The notes under the pieces were generated by a model, which was given only the letters and a program-made list of their open reading frames with translations, did no database searches and was not told where the DNA came from. A stretch of 64,000 nucleotides of DNA from Actinostola sp. cb2023 (lineage: Eukaryota > Cnidaria > Anthozoa > Actiniaria > Actinostolidae), in contig JAUJYZ010001458.1 of assembly GCA_033675265.1 (NCBI GenBank), forward strand, positions 1 through 64,000, given 5' to 3'. Positions 9,817-63,600 of this stretch are shown piece after piece; positions within the stretch are counted from its first letter, which is position 1; every line of letters starts with the position of its first letter. Position numbers and translations under genes: made by a program.

Positions 9817-9832
9817 GACGATACAAATTAAA

Positions 9833-9852
9833 AACACACACACACACACACA
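9833..9852. repeat. (CA)n microsatellite upstream of the ATPase gene
   Basis: An uninterrupted CA run of about 19-20 nt lies between the protease stop (9874) and the ATPase start (9816). Confidence 0.85.
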
Positions 9853-9873
9853 GAGGTAAGGACAAGTATTTAT

Positions 9874-10425: not shown

Positions 10426-10463
10426 TTTTTTTTTTAATAATTCTTGGACATCAACACCACCTT

Positions 10464-12842: not shown

Positions 12843-12887
12843 CGTGACTGTGTGTGTTCGAGAGACGGCTTTCGACGCGGCCTTTTA

Positions 12888-15595: not shown

Positions 15596-15654
15596 CTTCT
15601 TCCGTTACCACCACTACGGTTCCACCACAACAGGCGATCCAACAGCGAAACCGT

Positions 15655-16122
15655 TTACACCAATCCGACACACTGGGAGGGAGCATGCTCATTCATCTGC
15701 TCAGGTTCGGGTGAAGGTGTTTTTATGGTCTTCTTCTTTCTATTTCTAACCCTTTCTTCTCTTCTCTCTTTTCTCTTCTTCCATATTTGTGCATTTCTCG
15801 AACGCCACCGTCGCTCTAGGCGGAGCTTACGCGCTAAAGTTTGGTACTCGTTTTTAAGGTCTGTCAACTTCACACGGTTGTACAAAATTTCCCCCAAATT
15901 TTCTTGATCTCTCCCATTCAGACGGATGGTCCAATGGTAAAACTTTTGGGCATCTTCGTTCAGACGTATCGAACGTACCTCTCCTTCACGACTCATCGGT
16001 AACATTATGCACCGGTACCTTTCTTCCATCATTATCAAGAACGCCTCCGTGTGGACGTTCAACCACGCACGTGTCTCGGCGGCTGTCCACTTGATCGCCC
16101 GGTATGTTTTCTCGTCGGTCAT
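15655..16122 (-). CDS. Basic helical viral protein between PolB and integrase (about 155 aa)
   Basis: I take the ATG at 16122 ('MTDEKTYRAIKW'). The frame is open up to the PolB stop, but the codon at 16140 is GTG. The N-terminal two-thirds looks globular ('WLNVHTEAFLIMMEERYRC'). The C-terminus is a long charged helix ('KLRLERRWRSRNAQIWKKRK') followed by a Pro/Glu tail. Position and charge suggest DNA binding. No family is recognised. Confidence 0.55.
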   Translation of the reverse strand: MTDEKTYRAIKWTAAETRAWLNVHTEAFLIMMEERYRCIMLPMSREGEVRSIRLNEDAQKFYHWTIRLNGRDQENLGEILYNRVKLTDLKNEYQTLARKLRLERRWRSRNAQIWKKRKERREERVRNRKKKTIKTPSPEPEQMNEHAPSQCVGLV

Positions 16123-16136
16123 GATAGAGGTACTGG

Positions 16137-19100
16137 TCACCGCTCGCTCTCTCTCCTATCTAAATACCCGTAGGGGACCGTGTCCACTCCACGACGTACT
16201 CGATTGTCGTAGACCACACGAAAGTCCTTGGACATCTGTACGGTCTTCAGCTGACGGCGTTTGGCGTCACGTTGAATGCGGTACGGTTCCGTCACCACAT
16301 ACTTTTCTTGCATGCCTTCCACCAACCGCAGCATGGATTTAAAATTCACCACAGCGCTCGACGTCACGTTGAGAGGGATGCCTTTGCACTTGACCTCCTT
16401 GTCACCTTGATCGGTCACGTAGGCGTAACTCTTGGGTCCGGTCGAGACAAATTCACGAATAAAATCCCCCGGCCGTTTCAATTCTGACGTCAAATCCCCC
16501 AAATAATCCCCCAACGGTAGCGAAGTTTGTCCTGGATGGGTGACGTAGAAGACCGAATCGGTGTCAAAGTACAAGACACGTTCTTGAAGCTCTTCCAGAC
16601 AGCTGTACAATTTCAAACGAGCAAACGCCGTCACAAATGCCGCATGCACCACACTAGCAAACCCACTTTCGCGTGTGAAGTCGTCGATCCGGTCGTATTG
16701 CAGTTGGACCAGATTTTCGTTGATCAACAACAGGTGTTTGACCTCGGTTTTGGGACCAAACATCAGCTCGGTAAACCGTTTCGGTTGGTCCACGTATTCG
16801 GTGACGGGTAAGTGGGGGTTTTGACCAAATATTCCCCACAAACTGTTCAGCATCAATTTGACCAGATTGCGCAATCCGGGGTTGTGTGCCACTTCTTCCA
16901 GACGGATCCCTTCATGTTTAAAGTATTCGTCCACATACCGTTGACGGTCCTCTTCCGTGTGGCACCACGACGGCCAACCGGAAGCTTCCTGTTTCAAACG
17001 CAGGTAGGTGTTCACGTACTTACCAAACAATTCCGTCGACGTGTCAGGGTAGTGCCACACTTCGTACACGTCAAGAATGACATACCCAAGAGCGATGGCT
17101 TTCTTCAATTACGGGGTGGTCCACGTCCCCACTAAAGCACGTTCTTCGGCATTGTGACAACATTGCCCACTCGTTTGATTGAGTTGTTCGGCACACGTTC
17201 GACACAACACAAACATCAGCTTCTTTTGGATGTGAGCCGGCAAGACGGGGATGTACAGGTGACGTGGAGGAAGCACTTTGACTTTGTTCAACCCGTAATA
17301 CTGATCCGTCAAGGGTGTTTGAAAGTCCCGACGGATCAACGTCGGGTGCCCGACAGTATACGCACCACCCGATAACATCACGGAGGGGTACAATGAGGTG
17401 AAATCCACGTAATCGACGCGACTTCCTTCGGGGCACTTGAAGTACAATTTGAGAGCATTAGTACGTCCACCAAATAGACCCTCTCGGGGATTCAACGGTT
17501 CTCGGTGTTTCATCCATTCGGGGAATGTGTCATCGTTGTCGGCACTTTGCATCCCATCCCATTCGTGTTCCCACATTTCCACCACCTTAAACCCCCATTC
17601 CCGCATCCGTTGCGTGCGGTGGGCCGTCTCGTTGCGTATATCCCCCATCTTCTGTCGTAGTTTGGGGTGAAACATCTGAGCGTTGGGGAAACAGATGTTA
17701 CAAGCGTGCCAGAAACAACCATGGAATTGATACACCGTGCGGGTCTTGGGGTCGTATCCGTCCACTTTGGCACCCAAAATCGCCGTCTCTCCCTCTACAC
17801 TGTAACAGGTGTGAAGACGAAGACCCCGCGTCTGTTGTTCCAACCCCCACAACCATTTCTTGGCTTTCAACGATTGTATGTCTCGTGGTGTGTACCCACC
17901 TTGGGGGATGATCCCAATACTGTTGGGGGGCATAAAACGGTAACGGTAGGACCACATGCAGGCCGAGGCCAACGTGATGCATTTCACAAAGGGGTCAAAC
18001 CCAGTCACGTCGAGAAAAATACGTCGCGCTTCCATGACCCCCCGTTTCAACAGAATCACATCTTGTTGGCAGTAATGCTTCAATTCTGCTTGCAGATCAA
18101 ACGTTTTACCGAGTTGTTCGGTGTGCCATTGTCGGAGCGTTTCCACGTCCGATTCTTTCATCGACTCGATCCCATAGTATTCCAACGCCGGGTAGGGTCC
18201 CACGTAGTTTTGATTTTCGGGACGGTTAAAAAAATGAGGGAAATAACCTTTCTCTTCGGGTAAATTAAAGGTCTTGGAACATTTCCGCAAGGCCATCGGG
18301 AAAAAACATAACGAATTTTTAAACTTCAAGTTGAGAGCCTTCACATACATGTACATGCATTTGGCACCACGCATCACTACCTCGGGACGTTGTCCTCGCG
18401 CACACAACCATTCCAACAAAAAGTAAGAATCGTACCCCATGAAATTGTGAGCAAACACAATGGAATTTTGGTGTTCGGGACGAAACAACCAAGTGCAAAA
18501 GGCGTCAATAGTAGAGAAGACCACTTGATGTTCTTCACACCGTTCACACCACCCATCTTGGTTCGCCCATCCGGCACACAGAGTGCACACTTTCATAGCT
18601 ACTACCAGATTAACACGATGAACCGCTTCCAAGGGCATGGTTTCAATGTCGAAAAAAATGAAACGGTCCATAGCGTTTCCATCGTTCTCGTCGGTCACCA
18701 GCGGTTGTACATGACACAGGTGATCTGACAACACCCACTGACGACAATGATAACATTGTTGTTCTCCACATCGATGGGAAGTTATGTCGCGCACACCTCG
18801 GTATTGTTTCTTGTACAAATCCACTACTTTCTGACAGTCGACACAGCGACGGTACCGTTGACACACACTCCACTGTTCTTGACGGCCTTGCACCCGATGG
18901 GTGGTGACCCGGATGTGGTTTGAATAACACACGTCGGATTTGAAATGACGGTGGCACGTGGGGCAAGGAATCGATCGCACCACTTCTCGGCTGCAGTTGG
19001 TGGTTGATTCAAAACAGCATTCGCAAAACACTTGACATTTGTGTTTGCTCTTTTCCGAGTACCCCACGTCACACTCGGGGCAGTAATAATTCTTCTTTAA

Positions 19101-20063
19101 AAACCCCGTCATAGCGGTGATCACATCGTAATGTTCGTCGTGGTGAAACAAATACACATCGATATCGGGTTTTTGACCGGGGAATTCACTCAAAGCCCCG
19201 GCAAACCCAATACAGTTCAAATCATGGTAATAGACGTGCAATCGCACTCCATCGTCCTTCAGAACTTCCTGCAAACGGGTCAGTTCGGCACGGCCGCACG
19301 CTCCCCAACGGAGACCCGCCCGTGTGCACAATGCTTTGGCTTGTTCTTCTTCTTGACGTACTGTAAGATCTTGACGTGTGTAACCCAACGCCGTCCACTT
19401 CCCCACCACCACAGCCCGGAAAGCGCACGAACCGTCTTCTGTTTTCTTAATCCGTATCATGGATTTCTTTACCGTCACCAAATCTTCAGGGTCTATAGCC
19501 TCACATCGTACGCTTCGGTTAGCTCGCGGACCACACACTTGAGAGAGACGTTCACTCCGTCCGGACTCTCCACACACATGGACAAAACTGCGTCGAGCGT
19601 CGTTCCCGTAGAAAAAAAAAAAACTTCGACAAAACGCTTGGTGCTTTTGAGAGTGTTGGATCTTTTCCGGTTGCAACAACAAATGCAAGTCTTGGTTTAT
19701 TTTATACAAGTAGACGACAGTTTCTGTGTCACCCGCACCCACGAACATCGGGCGGTCGTCGTCCCCCCAATCTAGAACCACCACACGGACTCCATAATCT
19801 CTCATCAGGTATTCATTGAGCTTGGCGAGCAGCGTCATCAAATTTTCTGCGCTTTCACTTCCGTCGCAATCCCCCCTCACTCTCGTCGTGAAATCACAGA
19901 GAGCCGGTGAACGTTTTTTCATTAAAGTTTCATGTTGACGCCAATGCAAGAACTGAGCCACCGCTTCGTACATCGACGAACACACAACAACAGTCGTGCG
20001 GACGGCTAAGGTTTTCATCCAGAGGAGAGGTTCTTCACGTTTACGGATTAAAAACCGTTGCAA
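16137..20063 (-). pseudogene. DNA polymerase B (exonuclease and palm), interrupted
   Basis: This protein-primed-type family B polymerase is the replicase of Maverick/adintoviruses. Zinc-finger-like Cys pairs ('YYCPECDVGY', 'CQVFCECCFE', 'IPCPTCHRHF') precede ExoI 'FIFFDIET' (near 18650), an ExoII-like 'FAHNFMGYDSYF' and ExoIII 'HYCQQDVILL'. Palm motifs follow: 'DFTSLYPSVM' (near 17400), 'KLMLNSLWGIFG' (near 16840) and 'LYFDTDSVFYV' (near 16560). All catalytic motifs are present, but an in-frame TAA at 17109-17111 separates the first palm motif from the other two. The N-terminal part at 20069-21141 is in another frame. The gene is therefore broken at least twice. Confidence 0.88.
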
Positions 20064-20068
20064 ATTGC

Positions 20069-21141
20069 TTACACCACGTTGGCCACGTGGTACACCACCA
20101 CAGTCATCTCTCCATCGAGTAAAAATCCCCGTTTCGATTGTTGAACGGCTTCCAAGTGACGTAGTACACGTAGAGGGGTCAATTCTACCACCGGCATAAA
20201 AGGTAACTCAATCGGGTACACCAAATCCGAACCATCAATCACCAACCGTGCATAATCGGTGTTCCCCGCCTGCAATTCTTGTAGCACATGTTGGAGGAGA
20301 CGGCGAATAGTGGTGTTGGCCGCCGCCACCGCTTCTTCGATATTTTCTCGCGGTCGGTTGCGGATGGTGGTTTTAAAGACCATCTGTTTGGTGTGGAATT
20401 TAGGACAGTTTCTCGTTTCTACATTTTCAATGACAAAATAATCATCATCAGCATCATCATCATCATCATCACCACCACCGCCACCACCACCGCCAGTTTG
20501 TGGGGTTTGATCTCCGTCTAATAATTTGTCGAACAAATCTTGATAGATTTTACTCGAAACAACCGCATCTTCTTGTTCTTGTTCTTGTTCTTGTTCTTCT
20601 TCTTCTTCTTCTTCTTCTGCCAGCGGTATAGGGGGTAGCGTAGGTGTGGGTTCATCCACCATACAAGCCCACAAATCATCCATGTATTGTTCATCATAAT
20701 CATTCATGAGTTCTTGCGCTTGTGGAAAACCTGGAGAGGGTGGTTCTGGTGTATTCCCCGAATGCAGCGGAAACCCTAAAATGTTCAAAAGCGGGGAGGG
20801 TGGTCGGATTCGTTTTCTTTTCGAGGGTGGTGATTGGGTGTCACACCAAAATAATACTTCCGACGCATAGGGGTTTACTTCCTCGACTGTTTCATATTCT
20901 TCCACCGCCCGCACTAATTGACTGTCTCTTAATTCCTCTTCGGCTGTTGGGTTTTCTACTTTTGCCTCATATTCGATTGCTACACACAGTAGTTGACTGT
21001 CTCTTAGTTCATCATCATCATCATCATCATCGAGTAACGGTGCTTCAATCTGTTCACCCGCACGCCATAATTGACTGTCGCTTACTTCCTCCGCTCCAAG
21101 CATTGTCATTAACTGAGCTTTTAAACACTGATCCACTCTAT
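20069..21141 (-). pseudogene. N-terminal region of DNA polymerase B, frame-shifted from the rest
   Basis: The 355-codon frame starts after a candidate 3' splice site (TTTTTTTGTTATAG, exon start 21141; first Met at 21136). It carries three copies of a motif: 'SDSQLWRAGEQIE', 'RDSQLLCVAIEYE' and 'RDSQLVRAVEEYE'. These are followed by a Pro-rich linker, Glu/Gln, Gly and Asp runs, and a globular end ('CPKFHTKQMVFKTTIRNR' to 'LRHLEAVQQSKRGFLLDG') typical of the start of Maverick PolB. It stops at 20069, while the main PolB frame opens at 20063 in a different phase, so a frameshift near 20070 splits one gene. The acidic low-complexity linkers may be disordered. Confidence 0.65.
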
Positions 21142-29600: not shown

Positions 29601-31733
29601 ATTTTCTACATTTCCTGTCACAGCGTGCCTCGAACACGAGCAAATACACGAATTTCTACATTTCCAGTCAGAGAGTGCCTCGATCACAGGCAAGTACACG
29701 AATTTCTACATTTCCAGTCAGAGAGTGCCTCGATCACGGGCAAATACACGAATTTCTACATTTCCAGTCAGAGAGTGCCTCGATCACAGGCAAGTACACG
29801 AATTTCTACATTTCCAGTCAGAGAGTGCCTCGATCACAGGCAAGTACACGAATTTCTACATTTCCAGTCAGAGAGTGCCTCGATCACAGGCAAGTACACG
29901 AATTTCTACATTTCCAGTCAGAGAGTGCCTCAATCACAGGCAAATACACGAATTTCTACATTTCCAGTCAGATAGTGCCTCAATCACAGGCAAATACACG
30001 AATTTCTACATTTCCAGTCAGATAGTGCCTCGATCACGGGCAAGTACACGAATTTCTACATTTCCAGTCAGAGAGTGCCTCGATCACGGGCAAATACAGG
30101 AATTTCTACATTTCCAGTCAGAGAGTGCCTCGATCACAGGCAAGTACACGAATTTCTACATTTCCAGTCAGAGAGTGCCTCGATCACAGGCAAGTACACG
30201 AATTTCTACATTTCCAGTCAGAGAGTGCCTCGATCACAGGCAAGTACACGAATTTCTACATTTCCAGTCAGAGAGTGCCTCGATCACGGGCAAGTACACG
30301 AATTTCTACATTTCCAGTCAGAGAGTGCCTCGATCACGGGCAAATACAGGAATTTCTACATTTCCAGTCAGAGAGTGCCTCGATCACAGGCAAGTACACG
30401 AATTTCTACATTTCCAGTCAGAGAGTGCCTCGATCACAGGCAAGTACACGAATTTCTACATTTCCAGTCAGAGAGTGCCTCGATCACAGGCAAGTACACG
30501 AATTTCTACATTTCCAGTCAGAGAGTGCCTCGATCACAGGCAAGTACACGAATTTCTACATTTCCAGTCAGAGAGTGCCTCGATCACAGGCAAGTACACG
30601 AATTTCTACATTTCCAGTCAGAGAGTGCCTCAATCACAGGCAAATACACGAATTTCTACATTTCCAGTCAGATAGTGCCTCAATCACAGGCAAATACACG
30701 AATTTCTACATTTCCAGTCAGATAGTGCCTCGATCACGGGCAAGTACACGAATTTCTACATTTCCAGTCAGAGAGTGCCTCGATCACGGGCAAATACAGG
30801 AATTTCTACATTTCCAGTCAGAGAGTGCCTCGATCACAGGCAAGTACACGAATTTCTACATTTCCAGTCAGAGAGTGCCTCGATCACAGGCAAGTACACG
30901 AATTTCTACATTTCCAGTCAGAGAGTGCCTCAATCACAGGCAAATACACGAATTTCTACATTTCCAGTCAGATAGTGCCTCAATCACAGGCAAATACACG
31001 AATTTCTACATTTCCAGTCAGATAGTGCCTCGATCACGGGCAAGTACACGAATTTCTACATTTCCAGTCAGAGAGTGCCTCAATCACAGGCAAATACACG
31101 AATTTCTACATTTCCAGTCAGATAGTGCCTCGATCACGGCAAGAACACGAATTTCTACATTTCCAGTCAGAGAGTGCCTCGATCACGGACAAGTACACGA
31201 ATTTCTACATTTCCAGTCAGAGAGTGCCTCGATCACGGGCAATTGCACGACTTTCTACATTTCCAGTCAGAGAGTGCCTCAATCACAGGCAAGAACACGA
31301 ATTTCTACATTTCCAGTCAGATCGTGCCTCGATCACGGGCAAATACACGACTTTCTACATTTCCAGTCAGAGAGTGCCTCGATCACGGCAAGAACACGAA
31401 TTTCTACATTTCCAGTCAGAGAGTGCCTCGATCACGGGCCAGTTACACGACTGTTTACATTTCCAGTCACAGCGTGCCTTGATCACGGGCCAGTTACACG
31501 ACTTTTTACATTTCCAGTCACAGCGTGCCTCGATCACGGGCCAGTTACACGACTTTTTACATTTCCAGTCATAGTGTGCCTCGATCACGGGCCAGTTACA
31601 CGACTTTTTACATTTCCAGTCATAGTGTGCCTCGATCACGGGCTAGTACATGACTTTCTACATTTCCAGTCACAGTGTGCCTCGATTATGGGCCAGTACA
31701 ACATATCGATCTGGTCATAGCGTGCCTCCATCA
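29601..31733. repeat. 50-bp satellite array, about 43 units
   Basis: The unit is 50 bp ('cgaatttctacatttccagt', then 'cagagagtgcctcgatcaca' and 'ggcaagtaca'). It repeats without a length change from about 29600 to 31130, then with 49-51-bp units that diverge toward the right edge. A variant block carrying 'caatcacaggcaaatacacg' recurs at 29931/29981, 30631/30681 and 30931/30981, giving 700-bp and 300-bp higher-order spacing. Because 50 is not a multiple of 3 and the unit has no stop in any forward frame, long ORFs arise in all three frames. They are by-products, not genes. Confidence 0.95.
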
Positions 31734-32741: not shown

Positions 32742-32759
32742 CACGGGCAACAGGTCACG

Positions 32760-32845
32760 TAGCCTGATTTTCAGACGGCAGGGGGTCATCCGCTTCCTCC
32801 TTCTCCCCTCTCCCGTCTGATTACCTTCACCAGAGAACGTGTTCT
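32760..32845 (+). repeat. Left 86-bp terminal inverted repeat of element A
   Basis: It is identical base for base to the reverse complement of 43397-43482. Identity over 86 bp implies recent activity or gene conversion, in contrast to the decayed coding parts. Partial copies of its first 14-17 bases occur in the interior at 41614 and 42571. Confidence 0.92.
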
Positions 32846-34739
32846 GGGTATTGTTCGATTCGACCAATCACAGAGAGGCTTTCATTTTTGAAGAAGTGAG
32901 GAATGCAAGGAATGCTGGTATTTCAATCCAACATGGCGGACACCGGCGAAACTGAAGCGCTCACTGCAGCGATAAAACTAGCCTGTAAAAAAATTAAAGT
33001 ACCAGATCTGTTCCCAGAACAAAGAAATGCACTCTCTGCATTCATTACGGGTAAAGATGTGCTGTTAAATCTGCCGACAGGGTATGGAAAGTCATTGGTG
33101 TTCCAGATTGCACCTGAAGTTCGTGCTGAACTTGAGAATTTCAAGGGAAACAACAATTCACGGCCGATTGTGGTCGTAATCTGTCCGTTGATAAGTCTAA
33201 TGGAAGATCAGGAGGCTTATTTAAAGAACATTGGAATCCGTTCGGGTTCAATTGGCGAAGATGAAGCAAGAAACAAGCAGATTGAGCAGGGACAGTGTAG
33301 TATTGTGTTCACATCTCCAGAATCACTTCTCGGAAACCAAAGATGGCGGAACATGTTGGCTTCTCCAGTATACCAGCAAAACTTAATTGGCATTGCTGTC
33401 GACGAGGCTCATTGTATCAGTCATTGGTAAGTGTAATCCTGCAGTGTAAGACAATATCAAACCGTTGAATTACATCCTTTTTATAGAATTAGACGTTAAC
33501 TGTTTCATTTGCCAAAGGATTTAAGCTTAAGTTATTCACTTAAGCTTATTGTCATATAAATCACGCTTTCGTGAAACTCCCAAATACAGTGAGCTTTATA
33601 CAAACACGTATATCAGAACCTGAACCTCTCTTATCACAGGGGCACTTCAAAGAATCGGCAAAAAGCTGTAGCATTCCGAAAGTGGTTTTATAATCTTGGT
33701 GAACTGAGATCACTGGCCGGTATCCAGAGATGTGTCATTCATGGCGATAACAGCAACAGCCACCAAAATGACAAAGAAAACTATCATCTCGGTGCTTAGA
33801 TTTGCCAAAGAATATGTGGAGATTGCAAATTCCCCCAACAAGGAAAACATATCTTATTCTGTTCAATACATGGATAAGCAAGCTCCTATTGAGGACTACT
33901 TTATTTGGTTGGTAAAAGAGTTGCAAGATAAAAAAGAAGAGACAGAGAGAACCATTATATATTGCCAGACTATTAAGCAATGCTCCAACTTGTATTCTAT
34001 ATTTATCAAAGAACTTGGAGCAGATGTGTTTGTTAACAATACTGTGAATCCAAGAGATCGCAAAGTAGAAATGCTTCATGCCCTCTCCTCAAAGGAAAAC
34101 AAGAAGGTTATTTTGGAAGATATGAGCAATGGCAATGGTTCCATCAAAATATTGATATGCACAATAGCTTTTGGAATGGGAGTAAATTGCCGAGCTGTTC
34201 GTAGGATAATTCATTTCGGGCCATCAAAGTCAATAGAGTCATATGTTCAGGAAAGTGGACGAGCTGGCAGAGATGGGCAACCTAGTAAGGCACTGTTGTT
34301 GTACCAGTCTCTCCTCTTGCTACATGTTGACAATGAAATGAAAGACTATGTTCGTGGAAAATATACATGTAGGCGGAAGTTCTTAATGAGTTATTTTGAT
34401 GATGAGTGTGCCTCTGTTGACAAGGAACAGATTTGCTGTGATCAATGCTGTCCTGATGTATATCCAGATTACACAACAAGCTACCACTCAATCAATACGA
34501 TTTGTTTCTAATGATGACAGGAAGATATTAAAGAGCAAAATGGTCACGTTCAGAAAGAATGCAGTTATGCTGCTTATAAGCAAGGCTCCTAAAGGAAATG
34601 TTCCTGTCTTATCACCTCCTGATTTACTGATTGGTTTCTCTGACACTCAGATTAACCAAGTGTTGGATAATTCAGACAAAATATCAAGTATTGCAGATGT
34701 AAAGAAGTACGTCGAAATATGGAAAAAATGTCATGCATG

Positions 34740-36088
34740 TGTAACCGGGGGAAATGGTTACTACAATAGACTATAATGAAACGATGAAGAATCACTATAG
34801 AAACTAACGCAGGGAATTCTGACACCATATTGTAAGGAAGCGCTGAGCGGTAAGCGCGAGGAAATCTTTTAAATGAAGAAAATGAATTCTTTCTGAATGC
34901 AAGGTGTGGACTTATATCATGTTTATTGAATACAAGAGAAAGATAAACTACAATTTAATTGTGAGACTAACTGAAAATATACAACAACTGGATACGAACT
35001 GATAACTACATGTACGATTGCTTAAATCCCTTAGCAAACGCATCGTAAACTATATTCTCGAGTTCACTAAACAGATATTGAAAACTACAATATATCAAAA
35101 CTAGACGAAATACTGAAACGAATACTAAACGGCATAGTAAACGAATCATATACTAAACAACGGGTACATACTAAAACGTGTATACAAAACTTGTATACAA
35201 AACGTGTATACAAAACAAAACGGTTCTATAAAAAACGGGAATGAGCTAGCATTCTGTAAATAAAACAGTAATAAACTAAAGTTAATACAATTGTAATCGT
35301 AAGCTAAATTACAATGTAACAGCTGAATCAAGATACTTAAGGATAATTACAATCAAACGATTCACTGTCTTTAAGATATGGAACATATAACAATTTGAAC
35401 TAAAAACGATCAAACAGACCAGTTTAAACGTCTTTTAACACAGTCGATTAACTCCAAACTAAAGGTCAAACAATTATCTTACAAGTTAAAGTTATTATTG
35501 CAAACTAACCTGAGAACATGGCACAACACTCGCTGACCAGAGATTACAACTCCTCTGGGGAGCAACCCCAATGTTAACTCGGAAAACTAATGCATTAGAA
35601 CGCTGTATTTACTGATAGCTAGTGTCGTAACAACGTGCAACTATCCGGTATGTTGACACCGGAAATGCGTCATGCATCCCACATAAAGAGTAACTAGCTT
35701 GTGTCCTAAACGTGGATAAACCAATTAATAGTTGATCCCAACTCAAACTAAACTAGTTCAAAGTAATCCTAAAACTACTGTAGAAATTACTATATCTAAC
35801 TTAACAGAATACATATGCCTAGTGGCAAGGTTGTGAAATAATGTTAGGTAATAAACGTGACAACACGCGTTAATCCGTTATCAGTAAATCAGATTAATGT
35901 GTAACGCAATGTACTAAAACACGTCTAAGGAAGTCGTTACGCAAAACGTTGCTAAATACTTACTAGATGACGTTGAATTAAACCCAAATTTCGTGGAAGT
36001 AAAATCTACATTACTTCTAACATAAAGAATTATACTTAAACTACTTAAAAACGATTTTCAAAGATGTGAACGAAGTGACACTGTCACA
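34740..36088 (+). mobile_element. Solo LTR inserted in the RecQ coding sequence
   Basis: It begins 'tgtaaccgggg' and ends 'gacactgtcaca', and is flanked by CATG at 34736-34739 and 36089-36092. Removing it and one CATG leaves the helicase frame continuous. TG...CA ends with a 4-bp duplication fit a retrovirus-like (Ty3/Gypsy-type) LTR. No internal genes remain, so it is an LTR-LTR recombination product. Confidence 0.78.
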
Positions 36089-36303
36089 CATGTACTGTAC
36101 TTGACATCTTGAATGATGTATTTAATGATATTGATGATGAAGAGCTTGCATCTATTGATCAAGAAGACCATGAAGAAGATCTAGATGATACCTGGAATGT
36201 TGTAACTGACGAGGAACTTTTGTCGGTAGACTGGGAGGATTTATCCTCTAGTCATGTCATTCCTGAGGATTCAAGTTATTTTGAATATGAAAGCATGGAC
36301 TTA

Positions 36304-36570
36304 AGGCGCGATCAAACGGTGCATGATAGCCGATGATAGTCGATGATAGTTGAAACGCGCGATCACGTTTGATCGCAAACTATCATCGACTATCATCAAC
36401 TATCATCGACTATCATGCACTTTGAACATGTTCAAAAAGTTCATGATAGTCGATGATAGTTGATGATAGTTTTTCTTCGTTTGATCGGGTGCGTGATAGT
36501 TGATGATAGTCGATGATAGTTGGTGATAGTTCAACTATCATCGACTATCATGCACCGTTTGATCTCGCCT
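36304..36570. mobile_element. PIF/Harbinger-type foldback MITE
   Basis: The termini 'aggcgcgatcaaacggtgca' and 'tgcaccgtttgatctcgcct' are inverted repeats, with TTA duplicated at 36301-36303 and 36571-36573. The 267-bp interior is made almost wholly of tandem and inverted 'gatgatagty' units that can fold into nested hairpins. TTA duplication is the PIF/Harbinger signature. It interrupts the acidic tail of the RecQ gene in frame. Confidence 0.82.
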
Positions 36571-36699
36571 TTAGATAGTAGCATAGTTGGGACTATTCCT
36601 GAGGTTGTTTGCTCTCTAATTGATAAAGTGCACATTGAGTGAGAATAATGCAAAGTACATTATATCTTTTAAATTAAAGATATACTTTTCTCTGACTTT

Positions 36700-38320
36700 A
36701 GCTTTTTTATTCAGACGTTTCGACTGTAAATCAACAGTCTTCATCAGTTGGATAGTGAGAAACTGCGCGCGGATATATTTCAAAAAATACTACGCGAGCG
36801 CGTGCTCGTGCCAGTGTTCAGTTCTATCGCGCGGTAAACATCTGGAATGCTAATGTAGTCATTTCCAGCGTTGCGTTCGTGCGCCGAGTACCACGCTTCC
36901 AAGAAAAGCCTCCTGTGATAATTACTTTCGCTCGCCACGATTTCAGTGTTGTTAAAGTCAAAAGTGTGGCCTGTGTTGTTAGCATGTTGTGCGATCTTTG
37001 AATTGCTGTAATTATGAGAAATGGCTCTCTTGTGTTCTGTTGTTCTCGTCTTCAGAGATCGTTCAGTCTGACCATAGTATACAAAATCACAATCGTCACA
37101 TTTGATCTTGTATACTATGCCAGTTCTTGAACTCTTGTCGTGTGGGTCTTTTGGACGTGGGAACACATTGGCAAGCTTTTTCATGGGACGATGAGCAACC
37201 CGGATGTTATGTTGCTTCAAGACCCGTTGCACTCTTTCGGAGATTCCTTTGACATACGGAAGGACCACTGTTGCTGTTTCATTGTCCCTGTTATCACTTG
37301 AATTGTGATCTTGTCCATCTCTTAGATGATCTAGTGTTCTTTCACATGTCCTTATGATTCCAGGAGGATAGTTATTCTCAGATAACACACTTCTCACGTG
37401 TTCCCTCTCCTTCTTCTTTTGGTCTTCTGTTGATGGAATACTTTTTGCACGTGTAAGTAAGGTGTTAACTACAGACATCTTGTGAGTCATTGGATGGTGT
37501 GAATTGAAGTCGAGGTATCTATCTGTGTGTGTTTGTTTTCGATAAACATTGACTTGAATGTTTCCTTCTTCAGTGCGGGAGGTGATGGTATCAAGGAAAG
37601 ATAGCCCAGCGTCATTCTCTTGTTCTATAGTGAATTTGATGTTGGTATTCATGGAGTTTAAGTGTAGATGAAATGACTCGACGTTGTTTTTCTTCAAACA
37701 ACAGTGGCTATCGTCTACATATCTGAACCACCATTTAGGTGGGTTCGTTGCGGTAGAGATGGCTTGATGTTCTATTTCCTCCATAACAAGGTTAGCCAAA
37801 AGCGCACTTACAGGTGACCCCATAGGACATCCAAAGACTTGTTGGTAGTAATAGCCATCACATAAAAAGAAACAGTGATTCAGAACAAAGTCCAATAGCT
37901 TTAAGATGTTTGCTATCGATAAATTCGTACGCGTGAGTAACATGCGATCGTTGTTTAGCCGTACATTGGCGACTTTAAGGGCTAAATCTATAGGTATTGA
38001 TGTAAATAACGACACAACATCAAAGGATACCATTACTTCATCATCATCAATGCTGTAGCTCTTTATCTGTTCAGCAAATATTGAACTGTTCTTGACTGTA
38101 TATGTGTTAGTCAGTAGTGGTGACAATATCCTGACTAGATGTTTTGAGAGATTATAAGTTGGTGATCCTAGTGCAGCTTGTTATTGGGCGAAGAGGAATG
38201 GTCGGCTTATGAATCTTGGGTAGTCCATAGAACGTGGCAGGAGTTGCATCTGTTGAATGCAAATAGCGGTATATAGTAGAATCGATCTGTGACTTCTCAG
38301 GGTCATGCGTGGTCGGTGTT
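36700..38320 (-). mobile_element. Penelope-like retroelement (RT plus GIY-YIG), 5'-truncated
   Basis: The main ORF (36780-38126, 448 aa) has RT motifs 'DDDEVMVSFDVVSLFTSIP', 'QQVFGCPMGSPVSALLANLV' and 'WWFRYVDDSH', then a GIY-YIG endonuclease domain ('GIVYKIKCDDCDFVYYGQTE', 'LEAWYSAHERNAGND'). The upstream part ('ATFYGLPKIHKPTIPLRPIT') is in another frame (shift near 38160). The RT and the endonuclease are fused as in canonical Penelope elements. The 3' flank has the 'tgttgatttacagtcgaaac' signature. It lies between the two element-A genes. Confidence 0.85.
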
Positions 38321-38380
38321 CTTGTTCTTGTTCTTGTTCTTGTTCTTGTGTTCTTGTTCTTGTTCTTGTGTTCTTGGTGT
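38317..38380. repeat. (GTTCTT)n-type microsatellite at the Penelope 5' edge
   Basis: Repeated 'gttcttgttcttg' units with 'tgttcttg' interruptions abut the truncated 5' end of the Penelope-like element. Confidence 0.8.
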
Positions 38381-38683
38381 TCTAGTTGTCTTTATATTTA
38401 TAGAGTCATTGTTTTAGACTCATCAATAATATTGTTAAAGTCTTCACTGGTGAAATGTCTGAATTTAAACCTAAAACTACAATTTAGCATGAAGACGTCC
38501 TATAATATAGGAATAGTTCATTAATTTATTTGCTGTATATCCACACACGTTTTAACTCAACAGTGAGAAACTGATACCAAATGCAAATACATGTACATTA
38601 AAGTTCTGCAATTTTCTCATTTGGGACCGAAAACAATTCTAATCAAGGTCACCAAATATTATATATACTGTTACCAGCCTTGA

Positions 38684-41600
38684 CTAAAAAAGAGATAAAC
38701 AATATGGTACATATAATATTATTTTTACAATGTAGATGCATTGGAAACTATCTAGCCTTTCTTGCAAGATCAATGTTTGCCTTGTGTTTGTTTTTATCCA
38801 TTTGAATAATCCTGATACATCCAGGCTAGTCAGTTGATCTCTCTGAAAGTCATTAAAACATGTGTATCTCCGACCAGGTGTTTTGACGAGTACTGACTCC
38901 TCCATTAGAGTATTGACTACAGTCTTTAAGTCTTTACTGTAGTCAGCTGAGATATGTTTGCCAGATTTGCTTCTAACAAAGCAGTCCTTGTCTAAGTTAG
39001 TTAGTATTTGTTTGGTGACTTTCTGAGCTCTGGAAATTCTTGTTACTGCTTGAGGTGTTACATTGGCACCCAAGGTTTTGATAGATTGCTTCAAGTAATT
39101 GTTATCATGTTTTAAGTCAAGATCCAGGGCAACATTTGTTCCAAGACCACCTTTATTATTTACGGTTCGGTTCCACACTAGTTTATGTGCTTGATCAGGA
39201 GGGAGTAAGGATTTTACCTGGAAAAGTAAATATAGAGCTTCCAAAGCATATTTGGTTGTTGACTTGTTTGCTTTGAAATGTAGTAATAGAAGTTTCCAAC
39301 ACCTCAAAGTCCTTTCCCCATCACCTTCTGAAGTAGCATCAATAAAGTTCATGAATAGCAGTCCTTGATTGAGTAAAGAACAATTATAATTAAATACATC
39401 ATCATCTTTGCTATCACTAGTGCATGATGTCTTGGGGGGCTTTGTTGACACAGACACTGTGGGTTCTGGAACAACTGGTGGGGGATCATGAGTCATCTCA
39501 TGGTCTCTGCGCCTCTTACCATCAAATGCAAAGTTTTTTTTCACACCCCTGACTTCTGCAATTAAATCTACCATCAGCAGTTAAATTTTGACTAGTTGTC
39601 ATGTCTTCTTGTTCCTGTGCAGTTAAAATACTATTCACAAGGTCTTGCATTGGCCCATTATCAATAACAAACTGATCAATCACTTGGGTTGCGATTTTCA
39701 ACAGAAAGATTCCTTTAACTAAGTTTGTAGCATTCCTCAATGTGTGTATGCTGAGTAACTTTGTTGGCTCGTCCTCAAGTTTAGTCATCCCCAATATCTC
39801 CATTGCACCTGTCATTATGCGTGCCTTTATTTCTAGGAGGGCAAAGGCTTTGCAGTTGGCCCAGTTTGCATGTACATCTCCTGTCACGTTTCTTCGGTTT
39901 ATTAGGTTCCTATCAGCATAAAGAGTCCCCTTGTCAAAATCAGAAGATGCAGAGAAGTGCCTCCTGAAAATCACCTGTGATTAAAAAAGTGATTAAAAAA
40001 GCAATGTTACTCACTGAAATGAGGCTGCTGAATATATAATTAAAGGAAAAATGAGGCTGCTGAATATATAATTATAGGAAAAATGAGGCTGCTGAATACA
40101 ATGTATATTAATTATATTGGTAATTTTAGGGGTAAGGGATAACTGTCTTCGAAATAAAAGAGAGAAGGGATCGATAAAACACACCCACCCTCCCCCTTTA
40201 AACAAGCTATTGGCATAGCAAAAGAATGGAGGTTAATAAATTATGGCGATGGACTATGAGGGTCCTATAGCTAAGTGTACAATACCGGTATTATTTATTG
40301 AAACAGTTAGTAGCTATATAGACTTAGATCATACATTGAGAAATGTCACTGCAGCATGCCAGTCAGCTATTTCCATATGTATACCATCTAGTCTCTCCTC
40401 TGTTGTAAATGAGTTTTGGACTGCTTCGATGACATTGATACCACGTTCAACTGTTAACTGATCACCAACAACAGGAATACTTTGAACATATTTATTGCCA
40501 TTGTCATCTTCAACACTTGCAGCATAACCTTGTATTTGCTTTAGAATATCAAGCATCTCATCCGACTTATTTTCACTTTTCAGTATTACTCCCAAGTGCA
40601 CCTGGATTTCAAAATAAAATTAGCAAATAGTAATATTAAACAATGCGCTTAAAAATGCCTCATAAATGTATAACTACTGTACATACATATGTATAAATGT
40701 AAGGTGTACATGCATATAATTATTATTGATTCATTTATTAATTCCTTTGTTCTTTGTTCCATTCACAATACAATAATTCATCCAATTATTCATGTATAGT
40801 TTTGTCCTGAGCATGCACCTTCTGATCTCTATATGCCCCCTTTAACTTAGTGGTACCTTTTCTGACTTGCATGACATTTCTTTGCTGAATTGATGGGGTA
40901 TGTGTTGTATACAAACTTCTTTAAGAAACTGCAAGCATGGTACATGTTCCACGAGAACCCTAGCAACAAGATGAATATAGTCTTTTTTCAGCTTAACATA
41001 ATCAGCAGCAGCAGGTAATAGTTCACTGTTGTCTAATTCCAGTAGGTCAGTCTGACGGTAGCTTTCACACTGTGTTATTACTCTGTTCTTTATGGCCGTG
41101 TGATTAACCCAGTGAATGTCTTTATTTTGTCTATCACTTGTTATGTCCCGTGTAACTTTTCTCAAGTCAATGTTATCAAGAATGACTTTAAAGCTTCCAT
41201 CTTTGCCTGAGGCCTGATTGTCATTGCTGCTTCGTGACGACACCTGAAGTTCCTTCATTTCTTCAATTTCCTTGTCAAATTGTATGCCATATGAATCAAA
41301 CTTCTGCAGGGAAGTCTTGTTAGAAGTTGATAGTTTCATAACATTTAAACGTTGCATCAGTGTCTAAAACACAAAATAATACAGAAAAGTTAGTTTAAAA
41401 AATACATTACCATACTTGATTATAATTCTCTGACAGACCAGTCATGAACTAAACTGGCACAAACATTACAATATCATCCAATCATGCAATTAATTAATTC
41501 AGCCAGGCCAGAAATAATTTCAGTAATTAAAGTTTCTCCTCTTAGGGACTGGTCATTAATTTACATGGGGTGCAATAAATGGGAATGCCATATATAGTAA

Positions 41601-43267
41601 GACATAATTTACCTAGCCTGATTTTCAGACCAGGGGGTATTTTTTGGCTACCATGCATGAAAATATCTGCCCCCCCCCCCTATATGCACCAGGTCCCCTT
41701 CCTGTAAGTAATGACAGGTCCCTTATTACAGAAAGCAATGCATTATTTGAAATATATTTCAATATAAAATTAACCAAGCAGCTGATTCATTCAGTTCATG
41801 TTTTGAAATATGATACATAATTTTCAATCAAGGAATAAATCACTTACCCAGATCCAGCAATAGCAGCTGCAGGGGACCAATCACTATCTTTATCATGAGT
41901 TGACTAGTGTGCGGATGAAGCGTTGCTCGAACGAAAGTCGCGATGAAGATTCGTATATTTCACAAGTTCAAGACTCGGCCGGCCCTGCCAAACCAGTGCT
42001 TGGTAAAAGCAAAAAGTCAGCTAAAAAATCTTTATTTAATCCAGTGAGCATTGAACCATACCCTGTGAACAGAGGTTTCTTTAAACCATCGCTTGCACCC
42101 TTGCTTGTTACTGCTTTGCCAATTTGTGGAAATCCAACATTATTACAAAGGAATAAAGTCCTACCTTGCAAAGATACTCGAGACGACAATAATACACAAT
42201 GCCCAAGTGTACAGGTAAATAAGATATTATTTATTACTAGATAGATCCCTTCACAATCATTACTGATAGTAGAGCTATTTATATGCACGCAGATCACGTT
42301 TGGTTACTTAGGTGTTCGTATTTATGATCGAGACATGCAAGTGTGAATTGTTTTCTCGCAGCTGTGTGAATTTCTCACGGTCTAGAGTTAATTGTGAATT
42401 TTGGACTCTACAAAACTCTACTTGGCGAACTCTAGTATAATGTTCTAAATGTCGTTAAAAAAAAAATCAAATCTAATCGAGTCATTATCAATATGAAATA
42501 GGCGAATTTTATAAATTTATATAAATGTTGGCATTTTTAGCATGCACAATTAACTGCATGTGCATTTATTTAGCCTGATTTTCACTGATGATTTCTCACA
42601 CAATATTAATTACCTTTTCAGGTAATCCTTCACTATCCTACTTGTGAAAAGACATACAAGGCTTCTCTAGAGAAAGACCTCGAGCCCCTGGGAAAGGCAT
42701 TAGCCAGAAAGGGAACTTACAAACAAATAGCAAAAGCAGCATTCAACAGTGTTCCTTTGAAAAACTGTCTTATTGAGAAAACCTTGGATGTGCTATGGAA
42801 TGAATGCAATCAGCTGTGCTCAAAGAAGAAGCCTACCTTACTGAGACAAAGCACAACAGAAGATATGATTACTTTTTCACTTTCAAAGCTGTGTCACGAA
42901 TGGAAGGAAAGTAGTAGCCCCACTATTTTATTCATTTCTACTTACATGCACCAGTGTTGTGGCCTGAATTCGATATCATACATGCTCTTAGTTCACTTTC
43001 CAATGTATTCAGCTTACAAGCTAAATTGTCAACCTTTTTCACGTTATAGTAGCACTTTTTACAGATATAGGGGCTTTGACAAGAAGATTCAGAAGTTTGC
43101 AACTCTCCACCAACTATCCGTGAAATTATCCCTTTGATGTCGCACTCTGATTTTCCAAACACAGCAATCCGTTCTTTGGCATGTTCTATAGATATTCCAC
43201 AAACGATACACGATGGAAACGAATTTGATTGCGAGAAAATTGCTTTCTTTGGAGTAGAAGTTATCAT
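38684..43267 (-). CDS. DUF6589 protein of element A (probable transposase), rearranged
   Basis: Exon 1 (43267-42946, donor GTAAGT) encodes a ZAD-like N-terminus ('SFPSCIVCGISIEHAKERI', 'SPYICKKCYYNVKKVDNL'). Later exons on the same strand are 41363-40857, 40601-40335 and 39975-38684; all have GT-AG borders and phase-0 joins. They carry 'YVQSIPVVGDQLTVERG', 'MEIADWHAAVTFLN', a C2H2 finger ('GRFNCRSQGCEK', 'FDGKRRRDHEMTH') and 'LLFMNFIDATSEGDGERTLR', the pattern I know as DUF6589. One base shift in an A8 run (about 39535) splits the finger. The exons expected between exon 1 and 41363 lie on the opposite strand (41900-42930). Confidence 0.72.
41900..42930 (+). pseudogene. Inverted N-terminal exons of a DUF6589 protein
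   Basis: Two plus-strand exons (to 42214, donor CAG|GTAAAT; from 42622 after TTTTCAG; phase 0) read 'KKSAKKSLFNPVSIEPY' and 'VILHYPTCEKTYKASLEKDL', 'RKGTYKQIAKAAFNS', 'NECNQLCSKKKPTLL', 'DMITFSLSKLCHEWKES'. In DUF6589 proteins this segment lies between the N-terminal Cys domain and the part encoded here at 41363. Its orientation is opposite to the rest, so an inversion of roughly 1 kb, or an inverted second copy, is implied. Confidence 0.6.
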
Positions 43268-43396
43268 AGTGTTGCCATATTATTAACGGCTCAAAGTAAA
43301 TCCCGCATGGAATTTGATCTCTGTTTACCTTTTCGCGGTTCATTTCTTACGGCTGTTTCTATTGGCCCGCTCTATACAATGGTCATGATGACGTCA

Positions 43397-43482
43397 AGAA
43401 CACGTTCTCTGGTGAAGGTAATCAGACGGGAGAGGGGAGAAGGAGGAAGCGGATGACCCCCTGCCGTCTGAAAATCAGGCTA
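43397..43482 (-). repeat. Right 86-bp terminal inverted repeat of element A
   Basis: It is the exact reverse complement of 32760-32845 and is followed at once by the second CAGGTCACG target copy (43483-43491). Confidence 0.92.
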
Positions 43483-43491
43483 CAGGTCACG

Positions 43492-57600: not shown

Positions 57601-60600
57601 CCTATCTTCTTCAAAAAAAAGGGAATGGGGAAAGAAGGAGGAGGAGGAACGGGAGAAGGAGGAAGGAGGAAGGAGGAAGGGGAAGCTGGAGAGGAGAGGG
57701 GGGAGGGGAGGGAAGAATTGGGATGGGGTAGGGAGCAGGCAGAAGAAGTGCACAATGAGTTTGAGAGGTGCACTACAGTCAAAGCCAGGCTATTGAAACT
57801 GCTATAAACTACAGATCGTTTAACGCATGCTCTTGAAAATAACGAAAGCGCATAAATTAAAAATAAGGTACACTAACAAAATCAACAATTTACATCGAAC
57901 CCACCCCTCCCCTCCACATTCTCCCATCCATATAACCAAGACAGAAAATGAGAAAAGATAGGAATATAAATCATAATCGCTAACTGTCTATACCACATAA
58001 AAGCAATTCATGTTTTAGAATAATGTTCAAAATTTTGTACATTTGAAAATCAAAGGAATATATAAGTGCCTTCTTCTTTAACGATAATAGTTTTTTCACT
58101 TTTCACGCTTAATGAAATAATGGTTTGACGTTTCGACTGCATTGGTGGCAGCCTTCACGTGAAAACCGTGAAAACTATTATCGCTATTTCTAACTCACGC
58201 GAAACTGGCCTAAAAAGTACCAATTTGTTTTTTCTCGACAACTAAGTTATTGAATAGCAGATTTAAAATCTCACTTGATTCATGTTTAGGAATGGGTTCC
58301 CCTGAGGGTTTGAAACCCTGTTCCTGTTTATATACTAAAATATCCACCCTGTCTAGGAAAACACCCTCTATTTATGACCCTATTTAGGACAAAGGACACA
58401 ATACTGTCTTCTGTTTGGCAGGTCTAAAATATAGTACACAAAAATTCTTCACCGACGACAATCGTGAATTACCATACCCTCTTTAGGACAGACTATTATT
58501 GACTTAATTAGTATGTGTGAACTTAACGAAGCTATTTACCTTTTATCATGTTCTCGTAAGATTTTAAGTTTTTTTAAAGCAATAAACAGTGGTTTGCGGT
58601 TAAAAAGACAGTATAAGAAGAACCAAGTCCGACTTACTGATAATTTTTTTCACCATTCGAACCATTAGACAACTAGACAACACCATTCACCATTAGACAT
58701 TTCGTTTTACCATTGGTACCATCGTTCCATTGGAACCATTTTCTAAGGGCCCTCTCTATCCTCTATTCATCATCATACATATTACACAGGGTTCCCAAAA
58801 ACATTACACAGGGTTCCCAAAAACATTTTTTCACCATTCGAACCATTAGACAACACAATTCACCATTAGACATTTCGTTTTACCATTGGTACCATTGGAA
58901 CCATTGGTAACATTTTCTAAGGGCCCTCTCTATCCTCGATTCATCATCATACATATTACACAGGGTTCCCAAAACATTTTTTCACCATTCGAACCATTAG
59001 ACAACACCATTCACCATTAGAGATTTCGTTTTACCATTGGTACCATCCACTTTCTAAGGGCCCTCTGCATCCTCTATTCATCATCATACATATTACACAG
59101 GTCCCCCCCCCCCCAAAAAAAAAAATCACCATTCGAACCATTAAACAGCACCATTCACCATTGAACTTTCAGTTTTACCATTAGCACCATTCATCATTAA
59201 ACAGGATATATGTAGTCTTAAAAAAAAATTTCGAACATTAATATGCTAAGTCTTTTGGTGGGGGGCACAAAATCTCGTACCATTGGTACGAATGGTTCGA
59301 ATGGTTCTAATGGTGAATATCCGAACCAAATTTTTTTTACACAAATAACACTAAGTCTAATCTTTTGCTTCGCGCGTGCGCTTATCAACACAGAAGCGAA
59401 TAGCAAAATAGAATTGGGATACCTGTGGTAAATTCACCATTCGTACGAATGGTAAATTGTATTTCTCCATTCGTATCTGGTGGGGTGTATTGGACAACCC
59501 TCATGGCAGATACAGGATGCCAGAGCTGCCTCACAAGCATGACAGTCGTTCGTCGTCTTGGTCTTAGCAAGAAGGACCTCATCCCGGTCTCAACACGCAT
59601 GCATGCAGCAAACAACAATGGCATTGAGATCCTGGGCGCCATCATCCTAAGATTCTCTGGCAAATCCAAATCTAATCAGATACGTGAAACGAGACAAATC
59701 GTTTACGTGACAGACGATGCTGACAAGCTATTCCTGAGCCGAGAGACCTGCACAGCACTAGGACTGATCCCTGGCAACTTCCCAACGGTGGATGAAACCC
59801 CTCAACCCAGCAACTCTTCCGATGCAGCAGGACAAACCCACCAACCCACCCAACTGAATATACCAGAGAGTGCACAGCACCCACCATGTGACTGCCCACG
59901 CCGTGTGACACCCCCACCTAAGCCAACTCAACCACTATTCCCCACAATCGTGGCTAACAGACAGCGTCTACAACAGTGGTTGCTGGATTACTACAAATCC
60001 AGTACCTTTAATACATGCGAACACCAGCTGTTGCCTCTAATGGATGCTGTCCCCATGCGGCTCATGGTCGACCCTGATGCAGAGCCAGTTGCTCATCATA
60101 CACCAGTACCTGTCCCACTACACTGGCAAGCAGATGTGAAGGCTGGCATTGACCATGACATATCACTAGGCGTCCTAGAGCCAGTACCAGTAGGAGAGCC
60201 AGTGACATGGTGCCACCGCATGGTAGTTTGCGCTAAGAAAAATGGTAAACCCCGCCGCACAGTGGACTTCCAGGCATTAAACCATCATGCAACACGCGAA
60301 ACCCATCACACGCAAAGCCCATTCCACCAAGCACGTACTGTGCCTAATAACAAAAATAAGACAGTGACTGACTGCTGGAATGGTTATCACAGCATCCCGC
60401 TACACAAAGACGACTACCACCTCACCACCTTCATAACCCCATGGGGGCGGTACCGCTACAAAACAGCCCCACAAGGCTACATTGCATCAGGCGATGGCTA
60501 CTCAAGAAGATTTGACGAGATTGTCTCTCACGTCCCTAACAAAACCAAATGTGTCGACGACACCCTGCTTTGGGCAGACAACCTCAGTGAAAGCTTCACC

Positions 60601-63600
60601 CAGGCAATTGACTGGTTAGACCTCTGTGGACATCACGGCATCACCCTCAATCCAGACAAGTTTGTATTTGGAGCCGACAGTGTCGAGTTTGCAGGATTCG
60701 AGATCACTCCAGACAGCGTACGCCCCTGCAAAAAGTACCTCGATGCAATACGCAACTTCCCGACACCAGCCAACATAACTGACATGCGCTCCTGGTTCGG
60801 ACTCATCAATCAAGTGTCATACGCCTTCGCAGCAACCAACCGAATGTTACCATTCCGCCAGTCACTCAAACCTGGAGAATCATTCAACTGGAACAACACA
60901 CTCAATCAGCTCTTCGAGGAATCCAAAGCAGCAATTGTAAGTGAGATTGAAGAAGGTGTCCGCATCTTCGACAAATCCAAACCAACCTGTTTGGCAACAG
61001 ACTGGTCAAAGAATGGCATCGGGTACTGGCTTTTCCAAAAACACTGCCAGTGTGCATCCACTGAACCCTTCTGCTGTCCAACAGGCTGGAAAGTAGCACT
61101 AGTTGGAAGTCGTTTCACCCATGCTGCCGAGTCACGTTATGCCCCAGTTGAAGGAGAAGCCCTTGCAGTGACCGACGCCCTAGATAAAGCACGATTTTTC
61201 GTCCTGGGCTGCAGCAACCTCATCATCGCCGTGGATCACAAACCACTCCTGAAGATATTTGGGGACCGGTCCCTTGAGGACATCTCCAATGGCAGGCTCC
61301 GCAACCTAAAGGAGAAGACACTAAGATACCGATTTAGAATGATACACATCCCTGGCGTGCAACATAAAGCTGCTGATGCCGTCTCACGCCACCCCACTGG
61401 CTCAACTAATCCAGACCTGCTAAAACTAACTGACGACATAGCAGCCATAGACCTCACTCTGTATTCAATCATGGCTGGCACACGCTGCAACGAACCCCAA
61501 CTAGAATCATGCTCCCATGAAATCGACAACCAACTGACATCATCAGCTGTGTCTGCCTTAAGCACTTTGGCAATAACATGGGACAGAGTTAAACTAGCCA
61601 CCACCAGTGACGAAGATCTGAGCCAGCTGGCCTCCATCATAGAATCTGGTTTCCCCAGGTCCCGACACGAACTACCAGCCACTCTACACGAGTATTTCCA
61701 GTTCCACGAACACCTCTATACAGTCGATGGAGTCATCCTTTACAAGGACCGTATCGTCATACCAACCGCACTACGACAGCAGATACTGGCCATACTCCAC
61801 TCAGCACACCAGGGTGTGACCTCAATGACTGCTCGAGCTGAATCAACTGTCTTCTGGCCAGGTATCATCCCTGCCATCACAGCCCTACGAGTAAACTGCA
61901 GTCACTGCAACAGCATGGCACCCTCACAGCCCAGTGCTCCACCATTCCCATCCACGACACCAGCATACCCATTCCAATGTATCTGTGCTGACTACTTCCA
62001 ATACAAGGGCTTCAACTACCTTGTTGTAGTAGATCGATACTCCAACTGGCCAGTCATCGAAAGAGCACAAGACGGTTCAAAGGGACTAATCGACTGCCTG
62101 CGACGCATATTTGTGACATTCGGTATCCCAGATGAGTGCGCAACAGATTGTGGCCCTGAATTTAAAGCGGCAGCCAGCCACACAACAATTCCTTAAGGAA
62201 TGGGGAGTACATCATCGGCTATCCTCCGTGGCATTCCCACATTCAAATTGTCGAGCAGAAATTGGGGTGAAAACTGCCAAACGGCTAATTACCAACAATA
62301 CCGACTCACACGGGAGCCTCAACACAAATACACTACAACAAGCAATACTCCAATATCGGAACACTCCCGACCCAAATACCAAGCTCTCCCCAGCTCAGTG
62401 CGTATTCGGCAGACCTATCAAGGACTTCATTCCAATATTGCCAGGACGCTACAAGCCTCACCCTACCTGGAGTGACACATTAGCTGCTAGAGAAGAGGCA
62501 CTAAGAAACAGGCATATAAAAGCAGCAGAAAGATGGTCAGAACACACCAAAAGACTACCACCCCTAGCAGTTGGCAATTATGTGCGCATCCAAAACCAAA
62601 CCGGTCCACATCCAACAAAATGGGACAAAACAGGTACCATTATCGAAGTTCGCCAGTTTGACCAATATGTGGTACGAGTCGATGGATCAGGCAGAGTCAC
62701 AATCCGTAACCGGAGGTTCCTGAGGAAATATATTCCAGTATACCCACAACCACCCCGCCATACTATCAACGATGACCTGCATCTAGCTTACAGACTGACA
62801 GGCAGATCACCAGCCCCTCAGCCACTTGGACAACCACCAATCACTGTAACAACGGAACCACAGGAGCCCGAACCAAGTTCAAGCCTTCCAACACCCATAC
62901 CGACCACCACACAAGCTCCAACTTTACAAGACACAAGCTCTTCACAACCTCTTGATCTTCCCAAGGCCACCTCACAAGAGCATACAGAAAAGAAGCTGCC
63001 CCTAGCCCTGCGGAGGCTCATGGACCACAACAAAAAAGGCCTCCTCGAACAATGAACTCTTGACATTTAAGCATGTTTAGTTTTGTTCCATGCATTTAAG
63101 TCTTTACCGTCCCAATCAGTTTAGGCCCACCTACTATGAAACATTAAAGACTTGGGGGGAGGTAGAGCATTATTCACTTATTGGGTTACCTGTGTAATCC
63201 CCTCATCATTCATTGGGGGACTGGGACCCACTGTTTTCTCACGTTATTTCTCCTGGTCATTCTTGTACCTTAACACTCATTAAAATGGCTAGACGAAATG
63301 GATGAACTCCTATTTAGCAACCGTGCAACCTGTCAGATGCCCTGACTTTAGTGCTCTGAAATTAAAACGACCATTTCTGACAAAGTTGATTTCAAATCAT
63401 CATCATGACATCAGCAGCAGCAGCAGACTGGACGGTCTGGAGTTTGTCTGAAAGCATTGTTGTTTTCATCATTGCAATTTACTGGTTGGAACAAGAAGTA
63501 GTAAAACTATAGACTCAGCACTAGCAAAATTAGACCGAATGCAATAAATAATGGCATCCAATTTCAATTGTCATTGTTCTGGACTGACTAGCAATACAAT

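Follow-up and report, generated by a model that had tools for sequence, protein, structure and literature searches.

A RecQ helicase gene and a DUF6589 gene in a damaged DNA transposon, most likely of the AcademH kind, from Actinostola sp.

Introduction

Why does a RecQ-type helicase gene face a gene of the DUF6589 family between two long, perfect inverted repeats? The question is raised by positions 32,760 to 43,482 of a 64,000-nt stretch (in the following, the window) of contig JAUJYZ010001458.1 from the anthozoan Actinostola sp. cb2023 (assembly GCA_033675265.1). An original prediction, made from the sequence alone, took this segment for a transposon that pairs the helicase with a DUF6589 protein. 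Here, we argue for a damaged DNA transposon that most likely belongs to AcademH, with 86-bp terminal inverted repeats, a 9-bp target-site duplication, a DUF6589 protein as predicted DDE transposase and RecQ as likely helper of transposition. We assign this reading a probability of roughly 0.9. The reading matters mainly because a nameless protein family likely receives a function: PF20231 (DUF6589, unknown function) is linked to a predicted DDE transposase that is partnered by a helicase.

Ends of the element and its target site

End-to-end comparison recovers the predicted repeats, which are perfect over 86 bases with the first mismatch at position 87. A repeat search gives a length of 87 instead because one flanking base happens to pair. 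The predicted 9-bp duplication is likewise present, with the same 9-mer on either side:

32751..32759, left target-site duplication, CAGGTCACG, present as a single copy in the related uninterrupted site C1054
32760..32845, + strand, left terminal inverted repeat, 86 bp, begins TAGCCTGATTTTCAGACGG
43397..43482, − strand, right terminal inverted repeat, 86 bp
43483..43491, right target-site duplication, CAGGTCACG

When the first 28 repeat bases are searched with up to three mismatches, the two ends are the sole matches in the 64-kb window, while 100 shuffles give none. Just inside the repeats start two convergent genes, as had been predicted: RecQ at 32933 (+), 88 bases inside, and the DUF6589 protein at 43267 (−), 130 bases inside.

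The left end has at least 47 matches in the 424-Mb genome (G000). Among eight two-ended insertions, counting that of the window, the duplication is complete (9/9) in five and 8/9 in two, and one has none adjacent. Six of the eight are short (71-594 bp), i.e., too small for the genes. Repeat copies without the genes had been named in advance as a refutation of the transposon. Such copies do exist, but both of their ends are preserved and most are flanked by 9-bp duplications, as would be expected if they arose by internal deletion from such an element, and we read them in this way.

The original prediction had also named empty sites lacking the duplication as a refutation. At C1054, the uninterrupted sequence of a related site is CACGGGCAA-CAGGTCACG-TAGAGTC, which holds the 9-mer once, as expected. 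Its right side is 89.5% identical to the right flank of the window element over about 1.6 kb; left of the 9-mer only 9 bases are in common, apparently because the repeat containing the site begins there. That is, C1054 is a paralogous site and not an empty allele. The repeat at the element's right flank also recurs at C424:166740-171627 in steps of about 1.6 kb, suggesting that the repeat receiving the transposon is tandemly arrayed there. Finally, C329 shows a left junction identical to that of the window element and a 97.5% identical flank and is probably the other haplotype; a later block inside the element is only 85.9% identical.

The gene pair across the genome

Genome searches gave at least 105 DUF6589 matches (102 after merging) and at least 150 matches to the window RecQ (147 after merging). 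The following pair counts hold among the matches listed and are approximate, since haplotype duplicates were left in. A RecQ match is found within 3 kb of 71/102 DUF6589 loci, within 5 kb of 81/102 and within 12 kb of 87/102, compared to a chance expectation of about 0.9 for the latter distance. All 81 pairs within 5 kb are oriented tail-to-tail, as are 85 of the 87 pairs within 12 kb. The predicted mobile-element pair thus recurs genome-wide. The stricter expectation that intact copies always hold both genes is not supported by the matches listed, of which 21/102 DUF6589 loci show no RecQ match within 5 kb. Furthermore, 62/147 RecQ loci have no DUF6589 match within 12 kb.

The ends of seven further pairs were examined, one of them being untestable for a duplication. 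Three of the seven (C1138, C118, C1386) combine a 9/9 duplication with long inverted repeats:

C1138, perfect 88-bp repeats, AGTAAGAAC twice
C118, repeats of at least 79 bp, AGAAGTCAT twice
C1386, perfect 76-bp repeats, GTTGCACTG twice
C504, 90-bp repeats of 93% identity, without duplication
C275 and C1457, no repeats found in the stretches examined
C1137, runs into the contig end

The repeats of C1138, C118, C1386 and C504 all start with TAG, and so do those of the window element and of its sister copy C1087 (see below). EukProt offers a further case from outside this genome: a DUF6589 protein and a RecQ carry consecutive gene numbers, from which we infer that their genes adjoin each other.

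The DUF6589 protein as predicted transposase

The following exons of the gene lie on the − strand:

38751..39550, − strand, DUF6589 C-terminal exon, containing the E of SEGDG near 39328
39537..39980, − strand, DUF6589 exon reaching the C2H2 finger, where the frame breaks
40332..40619, − strand, DUF6589 exon with the second D (GDQLT, at about 40463)
40845..41363, − strand, predicted transposase exon with the first D (LDNID, at about 41177), a stretch absent from C1087
42971..43267, − strand, predicted transposase first exon with a weak ZAD-like zinc-binding domain

The main exon reaches 83 bits for the DUF6589 profile of Pfam (cut-off 27), and two smaller exons stay below it with 26 and 19.6 bits. 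With regard to the predicted ZAD-like N-terminus and C2H2 finger, the finger is found; the ZAD-like part is weak and lies under the Pfam cut-off (zf-AD, E 0.0028, 18.3 bits vs. 28).

For two AlphaFold models of DUF6589 proteins, the best structural alignments are to DDE transposases, i.e., to P element and Hermes, at 7-10% sequence identity. Three acidic residues (D, D, E) are conserved among DUF6589 proteins; they correspond to D248, D404 and E654 in the numbering of the family member P0003. The models and the conserved triad point to an RNase H-like DDE transposase fold, in line with the transposase role and DDE core proposed originally. At E 0.001, DUF6589 is the sole Pfam match of the proteins P0003, P0013, P0015 and P0017, and the same scan gave no P or hAT domain for these four. 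A search of 5.39 million open papers, most subscription journals being outside it, gave none with the name DUF6589, and naming it as the transposase of this element appears to be new within the literature searched. Beside this, two Desmophyllum proteins named 'Translation initiation factor' (P0034, P0035) match the DUF6589 profile and are likely mis-annotated or chimeric gene models.

The RecQ helicase gene

The helicase gene is distributed over five pieces:

32933..33427, + strand, RecQ first exon, with GYGKS and DEAH, which we take to be its Walker A motif and DEAH box
33641..33721, + strand, RecQ piece with a frame break directly 3' of it
33741..34448, + strand, Helicase_C part with ESGRAGRDG
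34498..34737, + strand, C-terminal part
36083..36303, + strand, end of the coding region, joined to the preceding part in C1087

Both the DEAD and the Helicase_C domain of the window RecQ pass the Pfam cut-off, and the Protein Data Bank (PDB) relatives of its homologue P0065 are the WRN, RecQ5, RecQ and BLM helicases. Among the best 120 of 7,988 matches, the 32 nearest relatives (P0042-P0073) show E-values of 2.4e-64 or better, and the named ones are from animals. The precomputed domains of these 32 contain neither HRDC (PF00570) nor PF09382, which we take to be the RQC domain. The next match is an HRDC-containing algal protein (1.4e-56), behind which ordinary RecQ proteins follow (6e-40 and weaker).

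RecQ matches within the genome are 28-100% identical to the window RecQ, and 122 of the 150 listed are free of internal stops. In 20 of 21 comparisons between the window and six other loci, replacement differences range from 0.18 to 0.37 vs. 0.69 to 0.87 for silent ones. Silent sites are saturated in 19 of 20 between-family comparisons, and the single usable pair yields a dN/dS of 0.11. RecQ appears to be under selection, because replacement differences are low and internal stops are rare. As far as sequence can tell, this would fit a function in the life cycle of the element.

Classification

The prediction knew of no published superfamily with this gene pair; such descriptions do exist. AcademH is described as encoding a helicase and making 9 or 10-bp duplications, and AcademX as encoding a nuclease and making 3 or 4-bp duplications (PMC10045372, 2023, citing Kojima 2020), while 'RecQ Helicase in Academ' was listed already in 2013, citing Kapitonov et al. 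(PMC3627910). Because helicase, duplication length and RecQ have been published for these groups, we consider the element most likely of the AcademH kind, which sets it beside AcademH by description and not by transposase sequence. It combines a gene for a RecQ-type DEAD and Helicase_C helicase with a transposase gene in one unit, 9/9 duplications are found in five of eight repeat insertions and in three of seven other pairs, and the DDE transposase is predicted from its fold and conserved D, D, E. The named relatives in this analysis are from animals; Kojima (2020, Mobile DNA 11:15) reportedly named AcademH, under a title that is said to place it in animals and fungi. No difference to AcademH was found in this comparison, which is by description and without an AcademH transposase sequence.

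If the Academ label is right, AcademX belongs to the same superfamily. It differs by its nuclease and 3 or 4-bp duplications, as far as described, from the helicase and 9 bp of the window element. The AcademX nuclease is of the XPG type. A Pfam scan of ten reading frames in this rearranged copy, with its other frames outside the scan, gave no XPG-type nuclease. P element and hAT (Hermes) are the best structural matches of both DUF6589 models. P element makes 8-bp duplications, and we know of no helicase gene in either group. The hAT duplication is usually 8 bp according to PMC12730594. The window element differs from both groups by its 9-bp duplications, and in the four DUF6589 proteins named above only DUF6589, and no P or hAT domain, is recognisable.

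Two other assignments have to be weighed. A KolobokH-type transposon, i.e., a Kolobok transposase with a RecQ helicase, would also couple a DDE transposase with RecQ, and in one rhodophyte Kolobok the helicase lies on the complementary strand as in the window element (PMC9587614). The same source gives 4-bp TTAA duplications for Kolobok and reports KolobokH from fungi only, with RecQ downstream of the transposase domain. The 9-bp, non-TTAA duplications already contradict this assignment, which we regard as very improbable. Somewhat less remote, though still improbable, is that the element represents a superfamily apart from Academ that has so far gone undescribed and shares with it the RecQ gene and the 9-bp duplications. 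The likeness to Academ by description instead of sequence, the structural matches to P element and Hermes and the absence of the name DUF6589 from the open literature searched would all suit it. On the other hand, a helicase with 9 or 10-bp duplications is what the AcademH description contains, and RecQ was reported in Academ earlier (PMC10045372, PMC3627910).

Proposed transposition model and likely role of RecQ

For an AcademH-like element, transposition might proceed as follows. The zinc-binding N-terminus and the finger of the DUF6589 protein would recognise the repeats, and the transposase would pair both ends, with its DDE core freeing them and joining them to target DNA. Target cuts would be staggered by 9 bp, a value read from the duplications, such that filling of the gaps would produce the 9-bp duplication. 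RecQ belongs to a family of 3'-to-5' helicases and may then unwind the branched strand-transfer product or the ends and thereby allow gap filling by repair synthesis. A more far-reaching version, in which the DUF6589 family as a whole is the AcademH transposase and RecQ an obligatory second enzyme that resolves or copies the strand-transfer intermediate, is possible but rather doubtful to us; we know of no eukaryotic DDE transposon with a helicase-coupled transposition route.

Conversely, RecQ could be a passenger, with the DUF6589 protein moving the element alone. DDE transposases of many superfamilies work without a helicase, and the short copies without room for either gene have moved, presumably in trans. 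We nevertheless hold this to be unlikely, given that one arrangement is kept in all 81 close pairs listed despite RecQ identities down to 28%, that most listed RecQ matches lack internal stops and that replacement differences are far below silent ones in all but one comparison. That the locus represents just two neighbouring host genes within a chance or segmental inverted repeat is hardly conceivable: a single locus can look alike, but the sister copy, the uninterrupted site, the repeated duplications and the many further pairs already contradict it.

With DUF6589 tied to a predicted DDE transposase, entries of animal gene sets that now go by 'uncharacterized' or 'DUF6589' may belong to transposons. 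The same may apply to RecQ relatives, which carry labels such as WRN-like or mediator subunit 34-like. The many divergent copies of the pair in this genome make the reason for RecQ retention in a transposon directly testable.

State of the window copy

The genome also contains a sister copy (C1087:69734-76388, 6,655 bp), in which both genes and the same repeats are present and which is flanked by a separate 9-bp duplication. Aligned blocks are 93.6-98.9% identical to the window copy, the four longest 95.8-98.9%. Compared to C1087, the window copy holds three extra segments and an inverted block of about 1 kb:

34741..36082, insertion without counterpart in C1087 according to the alignment, splitting the RecQ gene
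36304..36570, inserted palindromic array of 10-bp units without counterpart in C1087
36668..38380, − strand, inserted element, presumably Penelope-like, with reverse transcriptase and GIY-YIG both below the Pfam cut-off
41908..42952, + strand, inverted block containing the N-terminal DUF6589-gene exon 42619-42921 on the wrong strand

The wrong strand of this exon results from the inversion of the block. Each of the two genes shows one frame break in the window copy, which could in part be assembly errors. C1087 lacks the inversion, yet it is defective too, i.e., the exon with the first catalytic D is missing and its RecQ matches are split over two frames. Thus, the mobile unit of the original prediction stands, while its 10.7 kb overstates the native element given the three insertions; both copies together suggest a native size near 7.4 kb. 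Because its RecQ gene is interrupted and its transposase gene rearranged, the window copy is broken and could at present move only with proteins supplied by another copy.

Concerning the insertions themselves, an alignment overlap at the 1.3-kb insertion 34741-36082 suggests a short edge duplication of about 10 bp. The palindromic array 36304-36570 has long inverted arms and sits at the 3' end of the RecQ gene.

Other features of the window

Directly left of the transposon, a minisatellite spans 29603-31700 (50-bp unit, 41.9 copies, 94% match); its long open frames are probably only tandem repeat. Further left, 8123-20207 (−) holds a gene set that we take to be Polinton/Maverick-like, with a type B DNA polymerase in two frames, a chromodomain open reading frame (ORF) resembling an integrase and an adenovirus-type protease (21.5 bits, cut-off 21.3). 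Three more ORFs of this set resemble capsid and packaging ATPase genes without a Pfam match. To the right, a retrotransposon polyprotein is encoded at 59404-62193 (+); its domains are those of a reverse transcriptase, an RNase H and an integrase.

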